From Acidobacteriota bacterium (lineage in GTDB: Bacteria > Zixibacteria > MSB-5A5 > GN15 > FEB-12), in the NCBI GenBank assembly GCA_035529075.1, contig DATKXK010000005.1, forward strand, positions 1 to 64,000: a stretch of DNA of 64,000 bases, written 5' to 3'. Shown one piece after another: positions 1 to 34,650 of this stretch. Each line of letters starts with the position of its first letter. The stretch's first letter is position 1. The notes beneath the pieces were generated by a model. It saw only the letters and a program-made list of their open reading frames with translations. It was not told the origin of the DNA and searched no databases. The position numbers and the translations under genes are program-made.

Positions 1-207
1 TGCTTCCATCCCATCAGGCGTAAATACAGGACAGCCGTGAAGGTTCGGATCGAGAAGCCCTTGAGCAAAAACCTGCGGTTTCAAGCCCGGAGGTTTCTGC
101 CCAAGGTAAGGACCTGTCAAGACCGGGAAATCATCCTGCTGTGCGTTAATACACGGAGCCAATGTGGCGGATATCAGAAGCACAACACAAATTGCCTTAG
201 ATTTCAT
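1..207 (-). CDS. Secreted PD40 beta-propeller protein, N-terminal part, cut by window edge
   Basis: The reverse strand reads from an ATG at 207 without a stop to base 1 (69 codons). Residues 1-22 form a signal peptide: a basic start (MKSK), a hydrophobic core and an NAQ-type cleavage site. The mature start carries GPYLGQKPPG followed by a CPVFTPDG strand. The same YLGQ-PP lead-in and SPDG/TPDG turn open the PD40 (TolB-like WD40) regions at 32632-33504 and inside 26073-28865. So this is most likely the first blade of an exported PD40 propeller of unknown ligand. An AGAGAGG stretch about 10 bases upstream may be the ribosome site. Function beyond an exported propeller is not known. Confidence 0.75.
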   Translation of the reverse strand, partial: MKSKAICVVLLISATLAPCINAQQDDFPVLTGPYLGQKPPGLKPQVFAQGLLDPNLHGCPVFTPDGMEA

Positions 208-21356: not shown

Positions 21357-21483
21357 CGGGTGGCCCGTGGGCTTGCCCCGGGTTTCCAGGAGCAACGGTT
21401 TTCGGCGGGTCTCTGGAAATCGGAAACAATTCATGGGAATGTGAGAGGCTACCAGAAACCCAGCGCGAGCGCTGGGCCACCCG
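21357..21483 (+). repeat. Element B, copy 2 (127 bp)
   Basis: Same ends (CGGGTGGCCC / GGGCCACCCG), same length and same orientation as copy 1, with about nine in ten bases shared. The insertion point within element A is the same as in copy 1, so the A-B junction was probably copied as a unit. Confidence 0.85.
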
Positions 21484-22970: not shown

Positions 22971-23083
22971 AACCATGTGCCCTGGGCGTACTTTTCTACC
23001 GAGAATAGAAACGGGTCGGATGGTGAAACCGGGTTGCCGTGCATCATACCCAAGTAACCGTGAATATCATACGGAGGATGTCT

Positions 23084-23677
23084 ATGTTTCATGAGATAAA
23101 ACCAGACATACGGGCACGAATGCAGTGGCTCGAAACACAGGACTCAAAGGATCGGATTGATGGCAGTCAGCGTAGTCAACGACTTCGGCAGATCCCCCGC
23201 GACACCGGTCGTTTTCTTGCCGTACTGGCAGCCGGCGCACCCGACGGCGATATCGTCGAGATTGGCACGAGCGGCGGCTACTCAACCCTGTGGCTGGTGG
23301 TGGCCTGCATCGAATCCGACCGGCAGGTGACGACATTTGAGATTGCCAGTGATAAGGTTGACATTGCACGTGAGACATTTCGGCTGGCTGGCGTTACAGA
23401 TCGTGTGAATCTCGTCCACGGCGATGCGAAGGAGTTTTTGAAACAGAGAGACGGCATTGCATTCTGTTTCCTCGATGCAGAAAAGCAGGAGTATCAGGAC
23501 TTTTACGACATCGTCGTTCCTCGTCTTATTACTGGAGGACTTCTGGTTGCGGACAACGTTATCAGCCACGCGGAACATCTCCAGTCATTTGTTAGTGGTG
23601 TTGAGGCAGACGTGCGCGTAGACAGCCTAGTAGTGCCAATTGGGAAGGGAGAACTCCTGTGTCGGAGGGTTCCATAG
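23084..23677 (+). CDS. O-methyltransferase, copy 1
   Basis: 197 residues from ATG 23084, with GGAGG 7 bases upstream; a GTG at 23039 lacks a ribosome site and the paralogue starts at the matching ATG. The fold is the COMT/CmoM-like Methyltransf_3/24 type: motif I VEIGTSGGYSTLWL (about 49-62), TFEIASDK for ribose binding, HGDAKEFL and CFLDAEK, the last with the Asp that usually holds the metal. Candidate substrates are small catechol-like molecules; this is not shown. It is about 75% identical by eye to 31648-32241 and the similarity continues into both flanks, so the unit was duplicated. Element A copies 10 and 11 bracket it. Confidence 0.9.
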   Translation: MFHEIKPDIRARMQWLETQDSKDRIDGSQRSQRLRQIPRDTGRFLAVLAAGAPDGDIVEIGTSGGYSTLWLVVACIESDRQVTTFEIASDKVDIARETFRLAGVTDRVNLVHGDAKEFLKQRDGIAFCFLDAEKQEYQDFYDIVVPRLITGGLLVADNVISHAEHLQSFVSGVEADVRVDSLVVPIGKGELLCRRVP

Positions 23678-23740
23678 AGTGACACGTCAGATGTCAGAGG
23701 TATTCTCCCGGGATTGTGTCTTCGGTGCACAATCGACAAT

Positions 23741-23837
23741 GCACCGACGTATTCCACTGGCGCCGAGATGGCTCCGGCGGATCAGAAACTCGAGAACCGG
23801 TATGGTTTGCGGAGAGTGAGGCCGGGGCCGCCGCGGA
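23741..23837 (+). repeat. Element A, copy 11
   Basis: CACCGACGTATTCCACTGG, CAGAAACTCGAGAACCG and the core GCGGAGAGTGAGGCCGGGG-CCGCC. It is nearly identical to copy 16 behind the second O-methyltransferase, as part of the same duplicated unit. The gap 23678-24129 holds nothing else. Confidence 0.75.
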
Positions 23838-25381: not shown

Positions 25382-26072
25382 GTGTCCGGTGCTGTCCGGT
25401 GTCCTGATATCAGTCAAGTGTATGCCCTCAAATAAACTGGACTCGGCGTATTACTCGTCTTGTCCACGAAATGCCCTTGTGAGTTTTTACGATTTCGCCT
25501 GCTCCGGCATTTTATCGCCCCTAATACTCTATGAGGGCGTGCGATTTACTTTTACATCGCGTTGTGCCGACCGTGGCATGCCTGGCCGGACTGATAACTC
25601 AGAGTTCACGAGAGTCTGCTGATAAAACTGCCAACGTTTACGCACGCCTGGCAATCTCAGTGAAGAGGCTGGGGCCGCTCCCGGTGACATTGTCGGGGCC
25701 ACAACGATCGTGACCTAAGAGAAGAAACCTTGGGTGGCGAATCACGTATTGTCTCCACCTGCCTTGGTAGTTGAGTTTCCTGAGCAACTGCCTCAGTGTT
25801 TCGTGGAAGCTCCACCCGGTTACGAATGGCATAGTCAATGTGTTGCCGGACAGATCGATCCCCCTCGGATTGGCATAAGCGACGGCGCTGTAGCGGACGA
25901 TACCGCCGAAATACCATCCGTTACGCCGGTCGAGAAAGATTCATTGACGGAGGCCGAAGCCGGCGGCTGATTCACGCACGCAGCCACAAAAAGGCAACAA
26001 TCCAGGTTAATCAACGTCAGATTATGGTAAACTGTATCGGACCCGTTGTTTAACATGTTTCAGGAGTTACGC
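25382..26072. other. 690-base intergenic stretch, no convincing gene
   Basis: It holds the degenerate A copy 13 and an open frame from GTG 25734 to 25970 (78 residues, no hit to memory, no clear ribosome site). The last 60 bases contain the ribosome site and probably the promoter of the ankyrin fusion gene. Confidence 0.4.
25588..25682 (+). repeat. Element A, copy 13 (degenerate)
   Basis: CAGAGTTCACGAGAGTCTG and CAGTGAAGAGGCTGGGGCCG are recognisable halves of the core, with about 40 extra bases between them. Its low similarity suggests an old copy. Confidence 0.4.
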
Positions 26073-28865
26073 ATGGTTAGTTTCAAGAACTACATCTGGC
26101 TTGTTTGTCTTCTTGTGCTGTCAATAGAGGTTCAGGCCTCAGATGTCGACATATTCACAGCCGCCGAACAGGGGGATTTCGAAGTCGTGAAGAAACTGGT
26201 ACAGGAGAATCCACAGTTGGTGACCGCGACCGATGATCAAGGATACAGTCCTCTTCATAAGGCCGCCTACAACAACCACCTGAACGTCGTAGAGTATCTC
26301 ATATCTCAAGGCGCGGATGTCAACTCTGCTTCGGGAAGTGGCAGTACACCCCTTCACGGTGCTGCTTACTACGGCCATCCGGAGATTGTTCGCGTACTGC
26401 TTGATGGGGGGGCGGAATGTGACGTGGTCAATGCCGGCGGATATACTCCTCTTCTGAGCGCCGCTGCAGGCAACCATGGCGAGATCGTCAGGCTGCTGGT
26501 CAACATGGGGGCTAATGTCAACGCCAGCCCGAGCGGTGGTCGCTCCCCTCTTTACCAGGCGGTATGGAACGCCGATGCCGAGTTGACGAGATTCCTTCTG
26601 GACAAAGGGGCAGAGGCCAACATCCAGACGGAGATGGGCGTCTCTTTGCCGTATTTCGCGTCGGCTTTCAGGGATCGGGAGTTCGGTCTCATGTTTATCC
26701 ACAAAGTAACTGATTTTGAAGAAAAAGACGCGCTGGGACTGAGCATGCTTCATTACTCGGCCGCCCGTGGATTAGCGGAGCATGTACAAATGCTTCTGGA
26801 GCGGGGCGTTGAAGTTGACGCCAAAGATTCCCTCGGAAGGTCACCGCTGTTTTATGCCACGCTCTGGGGGCATGACGAGGTGGTGGATATCCTGAAAGGA
26901 CGAGGGGCATCAACTGATAATTTGGAACAAGAATGGTTCAAGGGTGATTATCTGGGAAGACCTGCACCAGGAAAAACGCCTGTCGAGTTTGTGGGAGATG
27001 AGTTGAGAACCCCATTCGCTCCCCACGGACAAATAGCCTTTTCTCCGGACGGCAGCGAAATGCTCTGGTGCCACCAGGCGATGCCGATTCAAGCCATGTG
27101 GTACTCCCGACAGGTAAACGGTATGTGGCACAAGCCAATGATCGCGCCCTTCACCGACCCGGCGCTTGACTATGCCGATGGTAGCCCGTGCTTTTCCGCC
27201 GATGGAAACCGCATCTATTACCACACTCATCGACCGCTCGTAGAAACGGATGGGCGCAATGAAGACACCGATATCTGGTTTGTGGAGAGGACCGACGAAG
27301 GCTGGGGAAGCCCAATCCCCCTGGGGCCACCGGTCAATACTGACAAGAACGAGCTCAGTCCTATGATTGCGCCTTCCGGCAATCTCTATTTCATAGGCAG
27401 TGAGTACGAAGATACCTACGGTGCGGGCGACATCTATCTATCAGAGTTCGTCAATGGCGTCTATACTACGCCCCGGAATCTCGGTCCCGCAATCAACAGC
27501 GAGTACTACGAGTTGACTCCAGTGGTACCATCGGATGAGAGTTACATCGTCTTTGCTTCGGACCGTCCCAACAGATACCAGCGTCACTTGCCGTTGTTTG
27601 TCACTTTCAAGAAAGATGACGGAAGTTGGACAAATGCTGTATCTCTCGGCGGAACCATCAGCCCGGGACGCGCCTGGCAACCGTTTATTACAGCCGATGA
27701 CAAGTTCATTTTCTACCAGCAGGGCACGAGCTACTACTGGCTCAGTACGGCGTTGATTGAAGATATCAGGGAGGCCATGATAGGTCCGGACCACCTTGAG
27801 GTGGCGGCCCCCGTCCCCGTGTTGCGCAAGAGTGAGCAGATATTTGAACATGCTGCCACCAACGACATCGCGCTGGGTGATCTTGATGGTGACGGCGATC
27901 TGGATGCGGTCTTTTCGAACATGGGTTTCAACGACTCGCGTGTTTATCTCAACGACGGTCACGGATATTTCACGGCCACGGATCAACTGCTGACCCGGCA
28001 GGGGCATGGAGTCGATCTGGGTGACCTTGATGATGACGGAGATCTGGACATCTTTATTACCTGTGCCGGATACGGAGTGAACAATATCGAATATGATCGT
28101 CCCAGCAGGATATATCTCAACGACGGTAGGGCCAACTTCACTGTCTCCCCACAGGACCTTGGAGACTCACTGCTGAGCGGCAATAACGTTCAGCTTTTCG
28201 ATATTGACATTGATGGCGACCTTGATGCCATGATTGTATACTATCAGGAAGACAATGGTATTTATCTGAACAATGGGCAGGGAAGGTTCACCCGGTCGGA
28301 GATGACCTTTCCAACCGGCGCTAACTGGGCTGATCTCGACGGTGACGGTGACGTTGATATTCTCGATCGGGAGGCAGGCGTCGGCTTCAAGACGCTCCTG
28401 AACGACGGCACCGGCCATTTGATCGAACACTGGTCCAAAAGCGACAGCGGCCTGAATCGCGGTGGGGTCGGTTTTGGCGATATGGATGAAGACGGTGACC
28501 TTGACGCCGTAGTGGCATTTATGGATCAGTCGGAACACCGCTGTTCGAGTTTGTGGTACAATGACGGGACCGGACGATTCAAGGAGTCCGATGTCAGACT
28601 TCCGCTAACCCGCAATGCCAGACTGGCGACGGGGGATCTTAACGGTGATGGTCACCCGGATGTGTTTCTTAACAACCTCGGTCTTCCCAGCGCGGTATGG
28701 CTTAACGACGGGAAAGGCGGTTTATTCGATTCAGGTATCAGACTGCCCGGCGAATGGAAGAATACATACTGTTGCCTGGGTGATCTAGACGGTGACGGCG
28801 ATCTCGATGTGTTTATCGCTGCTTTCCTGGGCGGACCTAACGAGATATGGTTCAACGAGCAGTGA
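26073..28865 (+). CDS. Exported fusion of ankyrin repeats, PD40 propeller and VCBS/FG-GAP repeats
   Basis: 930 residues from ATG 26073 with AGGAG 6 bases upstream, preferred over 26046. Signal peptide about 1-23 (...LSIEVQA). Residues 25-265 hold about eight ankyrin repeats (YSPLHKAAYNNHLNVVEYL, STPLHGAAYYGHPEIVRVLL). A link with GDYLGRPAPG opens a PD40 domain (about 275-570; GQIAFSPDG, GSPCFSADG), the same lead-in as in 32632-33504 and the gene at 1-207. From about 590 to the end run seven or so calcium-binding VCBS/FG-GAP blades (DLDGDGDLDAVFSN, DIDGDLDAM). All three parts are protein-binding scaffolds; there is no enzyme domain and no sorting tail. An exported ankyrin domain is unusual. 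Confidence 0.9.
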   Translation: MVSFKNYIWLVCLLVLSIEVQASDVDIFTAAEQGDFEVVKKLVQENPQLVTATDDQGYSPLHKAAYNNHLNVVEYLISQGADVNSASGSGSTPLHGAAYYGHPEIVRVLLDGGAECDVVNAGGYTPLLSAAAGNHGEIVRLLVNMGANVNASPSGGRSPLYQAVWNADAELTRFLLDKGAEANIQTEMGVSLPYFASAFRDREFGLMFIHKVTDFEEKDALGLSMLHYSAARGLAEHVQMLLERGVEVDAKDSLGRSPLFYATLWGHDEVVDILKGRGASTDNLEQEWFKGDYLGRPAPGKTPVEFVGDELRTPFAPHGQIAFSPDGSEMLWCHQAMPIQAMWYSRQVNGMWHKPMIAPFTDPALDYADGSPCFSADGNRIYYHTHRPLVETDGRNEDTDIWFVERTDEGWGSPIPLGPPVNTDKNELSPMIAPSGNLYFIGSEYEDTYGAGDIYLSEFVNGVYTTPRNLGPAINSEYYELTPVVPSDESYIVFASDRPNRYQRHLPLFVTFKKDDGSWTNAVSLGGTISPGRAWQPFITADDKFIFYQQGTSYYWLSTALIEDIREAMIGPDHLEVAAPVPVLRKSEQIFEHAATNDIALGDLDGDGDLDAVFSNMGFNDSRVYLNDGHGYFTATDQLLTRQGHGVDLGDLDDDGDLDIFITCAGYGVNNIEYDRPSRIYLNDGRANFTVSPQDLGDSLLSGNNVQLFDIDIDGDLDAMIVYYQEDNGIYLNNGQGRFTRSEMTFPTGANWADLDGDGDVDILDREAGVGFKTLLNDGTGHLIEHWSKSDSGLNRGGVGFGDMDEDGDLDAVVAFMDQSEHRCSSLWYNDGTGRFKESDVRLPLTRNARLATGDLNGDGHPDVFLNNLGLPSAVWLNDGKGGLFDSGIRLPGEWKNTYCCLGDLDGDGDLDVFIAAFLGGPNEIWFNEQ

Positions 28866-31493: not shown

Positions 31494-31647
31494 TGCTTGC
31501 CTGCTTTTGACGCAGCTAGTATGTTCCATCGATGGAGCGCGGCCCCAGCCGCGGGATATTAAAGCAAATAGAAACCCTCCATTCTGGTGGGGTACTGGTG
31601 CTGTGCAGTGTGCCAAAGTAACCGTGTTTATCTGTCGGAGGATGTAG

Positions 31648-32241
31648 ATGTTTCATAATATAAAACCTGTCATGCGTGATCGCATGCGGTGGCTCGAAAT
31701 GGAAAACTCACGGGATCGGCAGGATGGCACTCCGCGTGGTCAGCGACTTAGACAGATCCCCGACGAAACCGGTCGATTTCTTGCCATCCTGGCGGCCGGC
31801 GCTACCGATGGGGATATCATCGAAATAGGAACCAGCGCCGGCTACTCTACCCTGTGGTTAGTGTTGGCTTGTAAGGAATCAGGAAGAAAGGTGACGACAT
31901 TTGAGATCCAGAATGATAAAGTTCAGCTTGCCCGTGAGACTTTTCGATTGGCTGAGGTTACAGATAAAATCAACCTTTACCACGGCGATGCGCTCCAACT
32001 TTTAAAAGATCACGATAATATCGCCTTCTGCTTCCTAGATTCGGAGAAAGAAGACTACCAGCGTCTGTATGATATCGTCGTTCCTCGTCTTGTTCCGGGA
32101 GGATTACTGGTTGCGGATAATGTGATCAGCCACGCCGAAACATTGGGAGCGGTCGTAAGCAAGGCGAATGCGGATGAGCGAGTTGATAGTGTGGTAGTGC
32201 CAATTGGAAAGGGAGAACTTCTGTGTCGGAGGGTCCCATAG
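31648..32241 (+). CDS. O-methyltransferase, copy 2
   Basis: 197 residues, a close paralogue of 23084-23677 with identical length, start context (CGGAGGATGT before ATGTTTCATA) and C-terminus ([15 protein letters not shown]). Motif I is [14 protein letters not shown]-like ([18 protein letters not shown], about 49-66), with HGDALQLL and CFLDSEK for the metal/substrate side. The DNA similarity begins about 30 bases before the start and runs through the trailing element A copy, so gene plus repeat were copied together. Many silent differences show that the duplication is not recent. Confidence 0.9.
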
Positions 32242-32304
32242 AGTGAGACATCGGATGTCAGAGCCATTCACCCGGGATTGTGTCTTGGGTGCACAAGCGA
32301 CGAT

Positions 32305-32440
32305 TCACCGACGTATTCCACTGGTGCCGAAATGGCTTCTGTGGATCAGAAACTCGAGAACCAATATGGTTTGGGAAGAGTGATATTGGGGCCGCTTTGA
32401 GTCCAAGAAAGCCGCTACGGAAGTTGCGGTTTCTTCCTTG
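32305..32440 (+). repeat. Element A, copy 16 (complete)
   Basis: CACCGACGTATTCCACTGG, CAGAAACTCGAGAACC and the core GGGAAGAGTGATATTGGGG-CCGC, then AGCCGCT-ACGGA-AGTTGCGGT and TTCTTCC. It corresponds to copy 11 behind the first O-methyltransferase, but here the hairpin survives. The remainder of the gap to 32631 shows no feature. Confidence 0.75.
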
Positions 32441-32631: not shown

Positions 32632-33504
32632 TCAGTCAATGGCTTCTGCTCTGAGTTCATCTATGAAGTCCGCCTTCACCCAGTAGATATCGTGTTCCCT
32701 TGTGAAGAACATATATAAACCGTCAGGCGTCACAGTGGCATTGCCCTCGCTGCCTGATGAATTGATCTTATCATTGAGACTCCTGCCCGGAGTCCAGGTA
32801 TCATCAGGATTCCGGAACGTGATGCGCAGTTCGTGTCCGTAACTCTCCGCTTTTCTGGCTCCGTATATAATGTAGCTTTCATCGGGTGCGACAAAGGGAT
32901 GGGTGCCCCTGATGTTCGGAGAGAGTTTTTCCGCTGCCTGATACTTTCCGGCGACAAGTTTGAGTCGAATCAATCCACTGGCATACAGATTGCCGCTGGC
33001 TGCCACTGATGGCGTGTGAATAGTCTGATCATTGACCGGCCCTTCAAAATGAGTTGCCTTTCCCCATTTGCCGTTAACTTCTTCTGAAACCCAAAGATTC
33101 ATAGCGACTTTAGCTCCGGGAAAGGGTCGCCGTGAACAAAAATAGAGTTTTGCTCCATCTGCAGAGAAGCAGGCTTCACCGTCGATGTCCTTCGAGAAGG
33201 GAGCGATGACCGGCTTATGCCAACTGGAGCCGTCGGCTTTTCTCTCAATGTGATAGAGATGCGGTCCTTCACAATAGAATATGTCCTGCCCCGTGGGGGA
33301 GACGACCAGCCGATACTGATCGGTTTTCGTAGAGACGATTCCGGGCGCAAAGATGACTGGTTCGTCATCTGGAGGAGGCTGGCCGAGGTAGTCACAAACA
33401 AAATGTCTTTTATTCCCGGTCTGAGCGTGACAAAGGCCTGATGGAAGCAGGAGCCCTCCAAATACGACTGAATAGATGAGAGCAAGTCTCCGAGCGCTTA
33501 TCAT
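32632..33504 (-). CDS. Exported PD40 beta-propeller protein
   Basis: 290 residues from ATG 33504 with GGAGG 9 bases upstream; the longer ATG at 33555 has no ribosome site. Signal peptide about 1-28 (...SGLCHAQ). The lead-in CDYLGQPPPDDEPVIFAPG is followed by repeated PD40 strands (SPTGQDIFY, GEACFSADGAKLYFCS, VAPDESYIIYG, TPDGLYMFF), about six blades. WHKPVIAPF is shared almost word for word with the ankyrin fusion protein (WHKPMIAPF). Its partner and function are unknown; TolB-like propellers mostly bind proteins or glycans. Confidence 0.85.
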   Translation of the reverse strand: MISARRLALIYSVVFGGLLLPSGLCHAQTGNKRHFVCDYLGQPPPDDEPVIFAPGIVSTKTDQYRLVVSPTGQDIFYCEGPHLYHIERKADGSSWHKPVIAPFSKDIDGEACFSADGAKLYFCSRRPFPGAKVAMNLWVSEEVNGKWGKATHFEGPVNDQTIHTPSVAASGNLYASGLIRLKLVAGKYQAAEKLSPNIRGTHPFVAPDESYIIYGARKAESYGHELRITFRNPDDTWTPGRSLNDKINSSGSEGNATVTPDGLYMFFTREHDIYWVKADFIDELRAEAID

Positions 33505-33672
33505 ATCCCTATACCTCCGACGTAATTTGTGTTTCCCTGAACAGCCTGGCCACATGGATAATTCACCGCAACAGCAAAAAAGAGACCCACCATGTGGTGA
33601 GATCTATGGGCACCGCTCCTGATGAATAGCATTGATGTCATTACAACATTCCCCAAGTCTCGCCAGTTGCTG

Positions 33673-34440
33673 TTATTCTTCAGAGGAATTCAAGACAATG
33701 AATTGCATCTCTTGCGGCGGATTGCGAAGGTCGAGGGTGAAGGAGTCAGCGGCAATCCTCCTTACGTTGCGCTTGTCTTTCAGATAGTCCGCCGCCGTAT
33801 AATCCAGGAAGGGAGCAGCATCCGTCTTGAAATGCATTGGCAGAACGATCATCTTAGGTCTAAGCTGGGCGATAACACTGTCGGCTTCGGGCGGCGATAT
33901 TGTGTAGTGTCCTCCTACGGGAATCATGAGAATATCAATAGCACCGATCTGTGCCTTCTGCTCTTCACTCAGGTTTAAGCCGAGGTCGCCGAGATGAGCG
34001 ACTCTAAGGCCATCGAATTCAAACACAAAAACGGAATTCAGGATCGAACTCTTCCCGGGGTCGAAATGGTTGCAGACGATATCATAAATCCGCACATCCT
34101 TGATCTGAGTGTCAACGGGGATGAATTTGTGTTCCAGTCCCTTGTCCATAGGGCCGTTGATGCCATAGAGTACGACTGGTTCCCCCGATACGGCAGCAAC
34201 ATTGTCATGGTCTATATGCCGGTGCGAGACGGTAATAAGATCGGGTGTGACACTGTCAGGGATGTGGTATCCCTCCAGTTTCATCGGGTCGGTCAGAATG
34301 CGAGTGTGAGTCGACGTAGTTATCAGGAAACACGCGTGACCATAATGAGTGAAAGTCACTTCATTCGGTTTCTGAGCCTGTGAAAACGGGCAGATTCCTA
34401 ATAAAAGTAAAGCACAAAGCAGCCATAGGTACTTCATCAT
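33673..34440 (-). CDS. Exported metallo-beta-lactamase-fold hydrolase (UlaG-like)
   Basis: 255 residues from ATG 34440 with GGAAG 6 bases upstream. A signal peptide (about 1-23, ...CPFSQAQ) is unusual for the mostly cytoplasmic UlaG/YcfH-like branch. Zinc motif SHRHIDHDN gives H-x-H-x-DH (about 77-82); further ligands are probably HLGDLGL and MHFKTD. The family hydrolyses lactones, phosphodiesters or amides (UlaG, NAPE-PLD); the substrate is open. The gene stands alone between the PD40 gene and the ABC exporter; its stop is 169 bases from the PD40 start. Confidence 0.87.
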   Translation of the reverse strand: MMKYLWLLCALLLLGICPFSQAQKPNEVTFTHYGHACFLITTSTHTRILTDPMKLEGYHIPDSVTPDLITVSHRHIDHDNVAAVSGEPVVLYGINGPMDKGLEHKFIPVDTQIKDVRIYDIVCNHFDPGKSSILNSVFVFEFDGLRVAHLGDLGLNLSEEQKAQIGAIDILMIPVGGHYTISPPEADSVIAQLRPKMIVLPMHFKTDAAPFLDYTAADYLKDKRNVRRIAADSFTLDLRNPPQEMQFIVLNSSEE

Positions 34441-34650
34441 TCCACTTCCTTTGCTCATGAACGGCGACTGTAAGCCGACGGACAATCCGGACATAAAGCT
34501 ACTTCATAGTAAGACGACGTTCGCCTCATCGCAACTACTTTCCGAGGCTCCATATAGACCGTACTTATGTGTTGGACAGCCGGATTGGCTGCAGCAGTCG
34601 GTATACCTTCGTAAATCATGCTAACGCTGCATCGACTAGCCGCGAGGCCA

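Follow-up and report, generated by a model that had tools for sequence, protein, structure and literature searches.

A 930-residue protein joins an ankyrin domain, a PD40 propeller, and a VCBS/FG-GAP propeller behind an export-like N-terminus. It is encoded in the window, i.e., the whole 64,000-nucleotide stretch analyzed, taken from the start of contig C5 in a 3.04-Mb genome of 21 contigs. The fusion is intact, recurs with the same architecture in other Zixiibacteriota genomes, and carries the mark of selection in all three domains. Judging from this anatomy, the protein may well be a Sec-exported, soluble, noncatalytic recognition or adaptor scaffold of the cell envelope, probably periplasmic and possibly released, a reading in which we place about even confidence; its export, location, ligand binding, and adaptor role are all inferred. 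The features of the window that bear on this protein are as follows.

26073..28865, + strand: ankyrin-PD40-VCBS protein with export-like N-terminus (open reading frame, Pfam, nine full-length copies in eight genomes)
26073..26138, + strand: putative signal peptide, residues 1-22, with hydrophobic core, VQA/SD junction, and no lipobox (read from sequence, hydropathy)
26142..26900, + strand: ankyrin domain of ~8 helix pairs, residues 24-276 (Pfam, AlphaFold)
26925..27788, + strand: PD40 propeller with YLGRPAPGK lead-in, residues 285-572 (Pfam PD40, AlphaFold, Foldseek and VIA)
27813..28862, + strand: VCBS/FG-GAP propeller with seven DxDxDGDxD-like motifs, residues 603-912 (Pfam FG-GAP_3, motifs, DNA repeats)
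1..207, - strand: N-terminus of another free-standing PD40 protein (sequence match)
32632..33555, - strand: free-standing PD40 protein of the same family, 307 residues, export-like N-terminus (open reading frame, Pfam, sequence match)
33673..34494, - strand: Lactamase_B_3 metallo-hydrolase with HxHxDH (Pfam, motif)

Domain layout and predicted fold

Counted from its first TTG, the open reading frame spans positions 26046 to 28865 (+); from the ATG at 26073, which is preceded by AGGAG, it encodes 930 residues with no internal stop. The first-pass annotation had described an exported triple fusion; the fusion is upheld, and its export is likely. Pfam recovers Ank_2 (E = 6.4e-47), FG-GAP_3 (7.1e-31), and PD40 (4.3e-9), all exceeding the curated cut-offs, and nine full-length copies share the architecture. 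The N-terminus, MVSFKNYIWLVCLLVLSIEVQA followed by SD, reads by eye as a Sec signal peptide, lacks a lipobox, and agrees with hydropathy; the protein is thus probably exported. No anchor was recognized, and its retention in the envelope is therefore a guess.

The VCBS part scores 107 bits against FG-GAP_3 (Pfam cut-off, 26.9) and contains seven D-x-[DN]-x-[DN]-xxx-D calcium-type motifs in every one of the nine full-length copies (six in the copy of G078, which is cut), and seven DNA repeats underlie it. By both tests applied it is a seven-repeat VCBS/FG-GAP propeller, like the bacterial integrin-type propellers described with seven repeats and a calcium-type motif (PMC3192720); the window protein likewise has one such motif in each repeat.

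The AlphaFold model of the full-length protein has a mean pLDDT of 57.9, with the ankyrin part, modeled as ~8 helix pairs, best predicted and the remainder poor. Modeled alone, the PD40 domain reaches a pLDDT of 76.8 and a pTM of 0.82. Foldseek places TolB first (E = 4.7e-10, TM 0.52), ahead of the best other family at 1.4e-7, with TM-scores to TolB of only 0.48 to 0.57. The top match in VIA is a computed TolB model (Z 18.9, rmsd 3.5, 225 aligned residues), and the TolB crystal structure 1crz gives Z 18.8; GH43 glycosidase propellers (Z 18.1, 18.0, and 17.8) are within 1 Z and tie with TolB. The model thus gives the PD40 domain a TolB-like propeller fold, tied with GH43 in VIA. Among solved structures, sequence relatives of the fusion amounted to weak matches (E of 0.09 or worse), and the PD40 profile returned none.

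The alternative that survives best is that one propeller is catalytic, with lactonase-, lyase-, or glycosidase-like activity, and that the ankyrin arm does no more than position it. It would accommodate the GH43 tie, the S9 peptidases, oligogalacturonate lyase, and xylonolactonase that Foldseek also returns, and the metallo-hydrolase domains borne by ankyrin heads elsewhere in Zixiibacteriota, where all nine proteins with a GDHAG motif contain HxHxDH. TolB nevertheless tops both structural searches, clearly so in Foldseek, and the fusion matches no enzyme family in Pfam and none above cut-off in NCBIfam. Sequence identity leaves the choice for the PD40 part undecided, because the model is 12 to 18% identical to TolB and 7 to 15% identical to the enzymes matched (Foldseek, VIA). 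We consider an enzymatic propeller fairly unlikely. The earlier characterization of the protein as three binding scaffolds with no enzyme accordingly stands as regards recognized enzyme families, but the tie with GH43 keeps it from being asserted outright.

The scaffold reading assigns a role to each part. The ankyrin arm would engage another protein, ankyrin repeats being known to mediate protein interactions (PMC3932732). For the PD40 propeller, which resembles TolB, the ligand would be a peptide or protein, on the model of the periplasmic TolB propeller and its binding of Pal and of colicin peptides (PDB titles). Finally, the VCBS propeller, seven-bladed and loaded with calcium, would have a glycan or protein as its ligand; the VCBS supercluster includes both lectins and integrins (PMC8023676).

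Comparison with known systems

The closest parallel in layout is PorE (PG1058) and CHU_0125, which likewise have exported helical repeats, PD40, and a C-terminal binding domain; their NCBIfam profiles match the PD40 part at E values of 1.8e-14 and 1.1e-23, respectively. Unlike these proteins, the fusion has ankyrin in place of TPR and VCBS in place of CRD-OmpA, and no lipobox is seen. Scores are far below the NCBIfam cut-offs (53.0 of 600 bits and 83.7 of 620 bits), and its C-terminus is FG-GAP, with no OmpA match at E ≤ 0.1 in Pfam. An assignment to PorE was rejected on the grounds of both the cut-off and the missing OmpA domain.

TolB is the first structural match of the PD40 domain but differs in sequence (12 to 18% identity) and apparently in repeat number: the PD40 part has five S/A-x-D-G-like repeats when counted by eye, whereas TolB is described with six blades and the PorE propeller with five repeats (PMC5053529). 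The TolB profile, TIGR02800, gave no match to the fusion at E ≤ 0.1, for which reason TolB was rejected as a profile-based identification; against the free-standing PD40 protein it scored 14.1 of 343 bits.

Ankyrin repeats directly behind a signal peptide, which in the fusion is a putative one, would be a point in common with AnkB, a periplasmic ankyrin protein of Pseudomonas aeruginosa (cited in PMC7567364). Known AnkB-type proteins serve catalase (PMC7567364), and Pfam found no catalase among the nine window proteins scanned. The fusion further differs from the AnkB type in the two propellers that follow its ankyrin part.

The core group of VCBS proteins is prokaryotic and possesses a signal sequence and binding partner domains, including armadillo repeats (PMC8023676). 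The novelty of the fusion is lowered by this precedent of signal-bearing VCBS propellers with binding partners, although ankyrin and PD40 are not among the partners named in the available part of that paper. Each of its domains is of a known kind; their combination is without description in the literature searched, which covered few subscription journals.

Putatively exported ankyrin proteins and free-standing propeller genes in Zixiibacteriota

Free-living bacteria have, on average, fewer ankyrin proteins (PMC3932732), and the first-pass annotation had regarded an exported ankyrin protein as unusual. This was not borne out here. The 10 Ank_2 hits in the window genome fall in three open reading frames, i.e., the fusion, C15:717-2375 (570 residues), and C6:88029-89906 (635 residues), and in all three the ankyrin part has an export-like N-terminus and is followed by the PD40 family. 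Across the phylum, Ank_2 is present in 47 of 132 genomes, and the proteins examined were the top-scoring 30 of these 47 (one locus per genome, the window included), a nonrandom sample. About 28 of the 30 have an export-like N-terminus by crude hydropathy judged by eye; L188 has none, and the segment of L194 resembles a membrane helix. At a Pfam E value of ≤0.001, the tails are Lactamase_B_3 in 12 proteins (at least one of these matches, in L170, is just under the Pfam cut-off, at 23.5 against 24 bits), PD40 in 6, FG-GAP in 2, and DUF3471 with PDZ in 1; the remaining proteins have no recognized tail at this threshold, and several are cut where the fetched stretch ends. Exported ankyrin heads with differing tails, as judged from these predictions, are thus usual in Zixiibacteriota, at least among the top-scoring ankyrin proteins.

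Some of these proteins were examined singly. An export-like N-terminus, ankyrin repeats, and a C-terminal Lactamase_B_3-type metallo-hydrolase were seen in each of L170, L177, L178, and L180, and the protein at 1225-2418 of L176 combines an export-like N-terminus and ankyrin repeats with the DUF3471 and PDZ tail. An AGDH or GDHAG motif is common to 11 of the 30 sampled proteins.

Components of the fusion are also found as separate genes. The PD40 protein at 32632-33555 is 31 to 34% identical to the PD40 part of the fusion, and the product of the gene at 1-207, truncated by the start of the contig at window base 1, carries FPVLTGPYLGQKPPG. Both genes are on the - strand, and the relationship of the PD40 part to them had been correctly noted from the start. 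The Lactamase_B_3 gene, 117 bases from the PD40 gene at 32632-33555 and on the same strand, belongs to the same Pfam family as the tails of ankyrin-metallo-beta-lactamase proteins encoded by other members of the phylum. The PD40 family is expanded, with matches at E ≤ 1e-20 in at least 29 of 132 genomes and at least 14 in one genome.

Close relatives of the VCBS part occur in 11 of 132 genomes (E ≤ 1e-25). Nine VCBS loci were taken, of which two, L203 (a 97-residue fragment in G019) and L204 (in G056, where VCBS is fused to a different tail), were left out; neither has a PD40 gene nearby. This left seven free-standing VCBS genes, inspected with up to ~6 kb on each side. A PD40 gene is near the VCBS gene at three of the seven, against a chance expectation of ~0.2 estimated from PD40 counts and genome sizes, although the count was made of a pattern already spotted and a single genome (G037) accounts for two of the three cases. 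Contig C41 of G037 has a run of genes on one strand, namely two for PD40 proteins, one for Lactamase_B, and then the VCBS gene; on C16 of the same genome, the PD40 and VCBS genes share a strand with an 18-base gap; and on C104 of G033 the two are convergent. Within ~6 kb on each side, no PD40 gene was found at the loci in G114, G037 (C24), G027, or the window genome (C4). The neighboring free-standing PD40 and VCBS genes may represent the unfused counterpart of the fusion, in which a single polypeptide would join components that some relatives encode as separate neighboring genes.

Two of the VCBS relatives deserve separate mention. The frame in L203 (G019 C5, 70192-70473) encodes 97 residues with 60% identity to the last stretch of the VCBS part; its surroundings match none of four home-made profiles, and it is possibly a gene remnant. 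The terminal domain of the VCBS relative in G056 (L093) looks similar to the Fib_succ_major-like one described below.

The fusion may therefore be viewed as one of several exported ankyrin proteins of Zixiibacteriota that differ in what follows the ankyrin head, and its gene would have moved between lineages. More broadly, and tentatively, the phylum may possess a modular, horizontally shuffled system in which exported ankyrin heads take exchangeable tails (PD40, PD40-VCBS, metallo-beta-lactamase, and PDZ), several of which also exist as free-standing exported genes. Such a system, serving for recognition in the periplasm or at the surface, with the arm picking the partner and the tail setting what happens to it, is a possibility that we hold to be rather doubtful at present. 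Were it true, (i) an uncultured phylum would use ankyrin repeats, so far treated mostly as cytoplasmic or injected, as a main arm for recognition outside the cytoplasm; (ii) the tails of these arms would range from binding to metallo-hydrolase domains; (iii) a concrete set of proteins would be at hand for asking what ankyrin arms recognize; and (iv) the genes would provide a marker for gene exchange within Zixiibacteriota.

Distribution, history, and surroundings of the gene

A survey of 132 Zixiibacteriota genomes found a match to the fusion at E ≤ 1e-60 in 10. Nine full-length copies are present in eight of them (the window genome, G033, G114, G055, G027, G037, G026, and G018, which has two), and those of G078 and G025 are cut by contig ends. 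The other eight full-length copies are 78, 76, 75, 74, 47, 46, 44, and 38% identical to the window protein. Between the window copy and those of G033, G114, G055, and G027, dN is 0.10 to 0.19 and dS is ≥0.71 for every domain; saturation of dS affects 1 of the 12 domain comparisons. Elsewhere, 45 pattern matches in viral contigs included no relative of the fusion, four plasmid records matched the ankyrin part alone (27 to 30% of the query), and a scan of genome contigs, with a reach limited to close relatives, returned three relatives, all of them from Zixiibacteriota.

The similarity among copies does not follow genome kinship; G033, G026, and G027 belong to the same family as the window genome. 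The copies of the window genome, G033, G114, G055, and G027 are mutually 73 to 78% identical, whatever the relatedness of their genomes, while RpoB identity to the window genome is 83% in G027, 75% (partial) in G033, 71% in G055, and 65% in G114; the G114 fusion, at 76%, thus exceeds its RpoB. Conversely, G026 has 77% RpoB identity and a fusion at 46%, and G018 has 80% (partial) and fusions at 44% and 38%. For G114, pS is 0.55 to 0.61 and pN is 0.09 to 0.17 in the fusion, compared to 0.79 and 0.25 in rpoB, and the pS of the fusion is below that of rpoB in every domain for G033 and G027 and in two of three domains for G055. With all of these pS values close to saturation, the argument leans mainly on the protein identities, and rpoB provides only one marker for comparison. 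On these comparisons, the gene looks to have been transferred horizontally between Zixiibacteriota lineages. The deeper split among copies may reflect ancient paralogy and loss, G018 having two copies, but paralogy and loss fail to explain a fusion that is closer than RpoB across the class.

The domains do not all tell the same story. The second G018 copy (G018b) is 31 to 34% identical in its PD40 part and 59% in its VCBS part, whereas the copies of G026, G018 (G018a), and G078 are 54 to 58% identical in the PD40 part and 43 to 44% in the VCBS part. Three free-standing VCBS genes, at 46 to 49%, stand above the VCBS parts of these three copies, a contrast that depends on the alignment (45 to 47% against 46 to 48% in a second one). 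In addition, the PD40 part of G018b lies outside a clade of the other nine with 100/100 support, and a single origin appears in 0% (PD40) and 1% (VCBS) of 200 bootstrap trees. Several independent origins are nevertheless not claimed, because AU tests do not reject a single one (P = 0.40 for VCBS and 0.26 for PD40); two further VCBS groupings gave P values of 0.24 and 0.42.

The discordant placement of G018b and the bootstrap trees, together with the abundance of query-matching repeats in the window genome (26 matches), could also be taken to mean that the fusion arose neutrally, as domains of abundant repeat genes were shuffled, and lacks a specific shared function. Nine intact full-length copies, dN far below dS in all three domains, and AU tests that leave a single origin standing argue against this, and we consider it unlikely.

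Less probable still, and distinctly improbable in our estimation, is that the fusion is a secreted eukaryote-like protein aimed at protists or animal hosts (uptake evasion or adhesion), as proposed for ankyrin-rich symbionts. Genomes of sponge symbionts are enriched in eukaryote-like proteins, among which ankyrin, WD40, and PD40 domains are counted (PMC9531527), and ankyrin-rich bacteria are often host associated (PMC3932732). The window genome, however, holds just three Ank_2 open reading frames, and no tie to a host was found; the three relatives returned by the contig scan are metagenome bins, which are compatible with a host. No type IV effector profile reached its cut-off, and a Dot/Icm ankyrin effector was rejected, the best profile (AnkH) giving 96.2 of 600 bits.

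The weakest alternative, an assembly join or a frameshift between domains, which the first-pass annotation had named as what would undo the fusion, has a negligible probability because nine intact copies occur in eight genomes, including two single-contig assemblies (G027 and G114), with dN far below dS in every domain, and nothing was found in its favor.

Turning to the surroundings of the scaffold candidate, the gene neighbors of its copies are mostly not in common among the eight loci compared (open reading frames of ≥130 residues, in stretches partly cut by contig ends), and a partner gene therefore cannot be named. A link to an RND transporter was rejected as not general: it adjoins the fusion in L051, is near in L050 (two of eight loci), and is 20 kb away in the window. 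A Fib_succ_major-like gene was likewise rejected as a partner, since it directly follows the fusion in two of the eight loci (L050, 5100-5876; L195, 9235-9696); a 57-residue stretch is common to both genes.

Two kinds of repeats were also observed around the fusion gene in the window. Two paralogous O-methyltransferase genes and the DNA downstream of them (23035-23831 and 31599-32395) form direct repeats 8,564 bp apart that flank it, with two stretches at 77% and 85% identity. A 30-nucleotide repeat like CCCAGCGCGAGCGCTGGGCCACCCGGCCGA, which from its appearance we take to be REP-like, is present in three copies, at 21459, 29136, and 31269, one of them shortly past the fusion gene.
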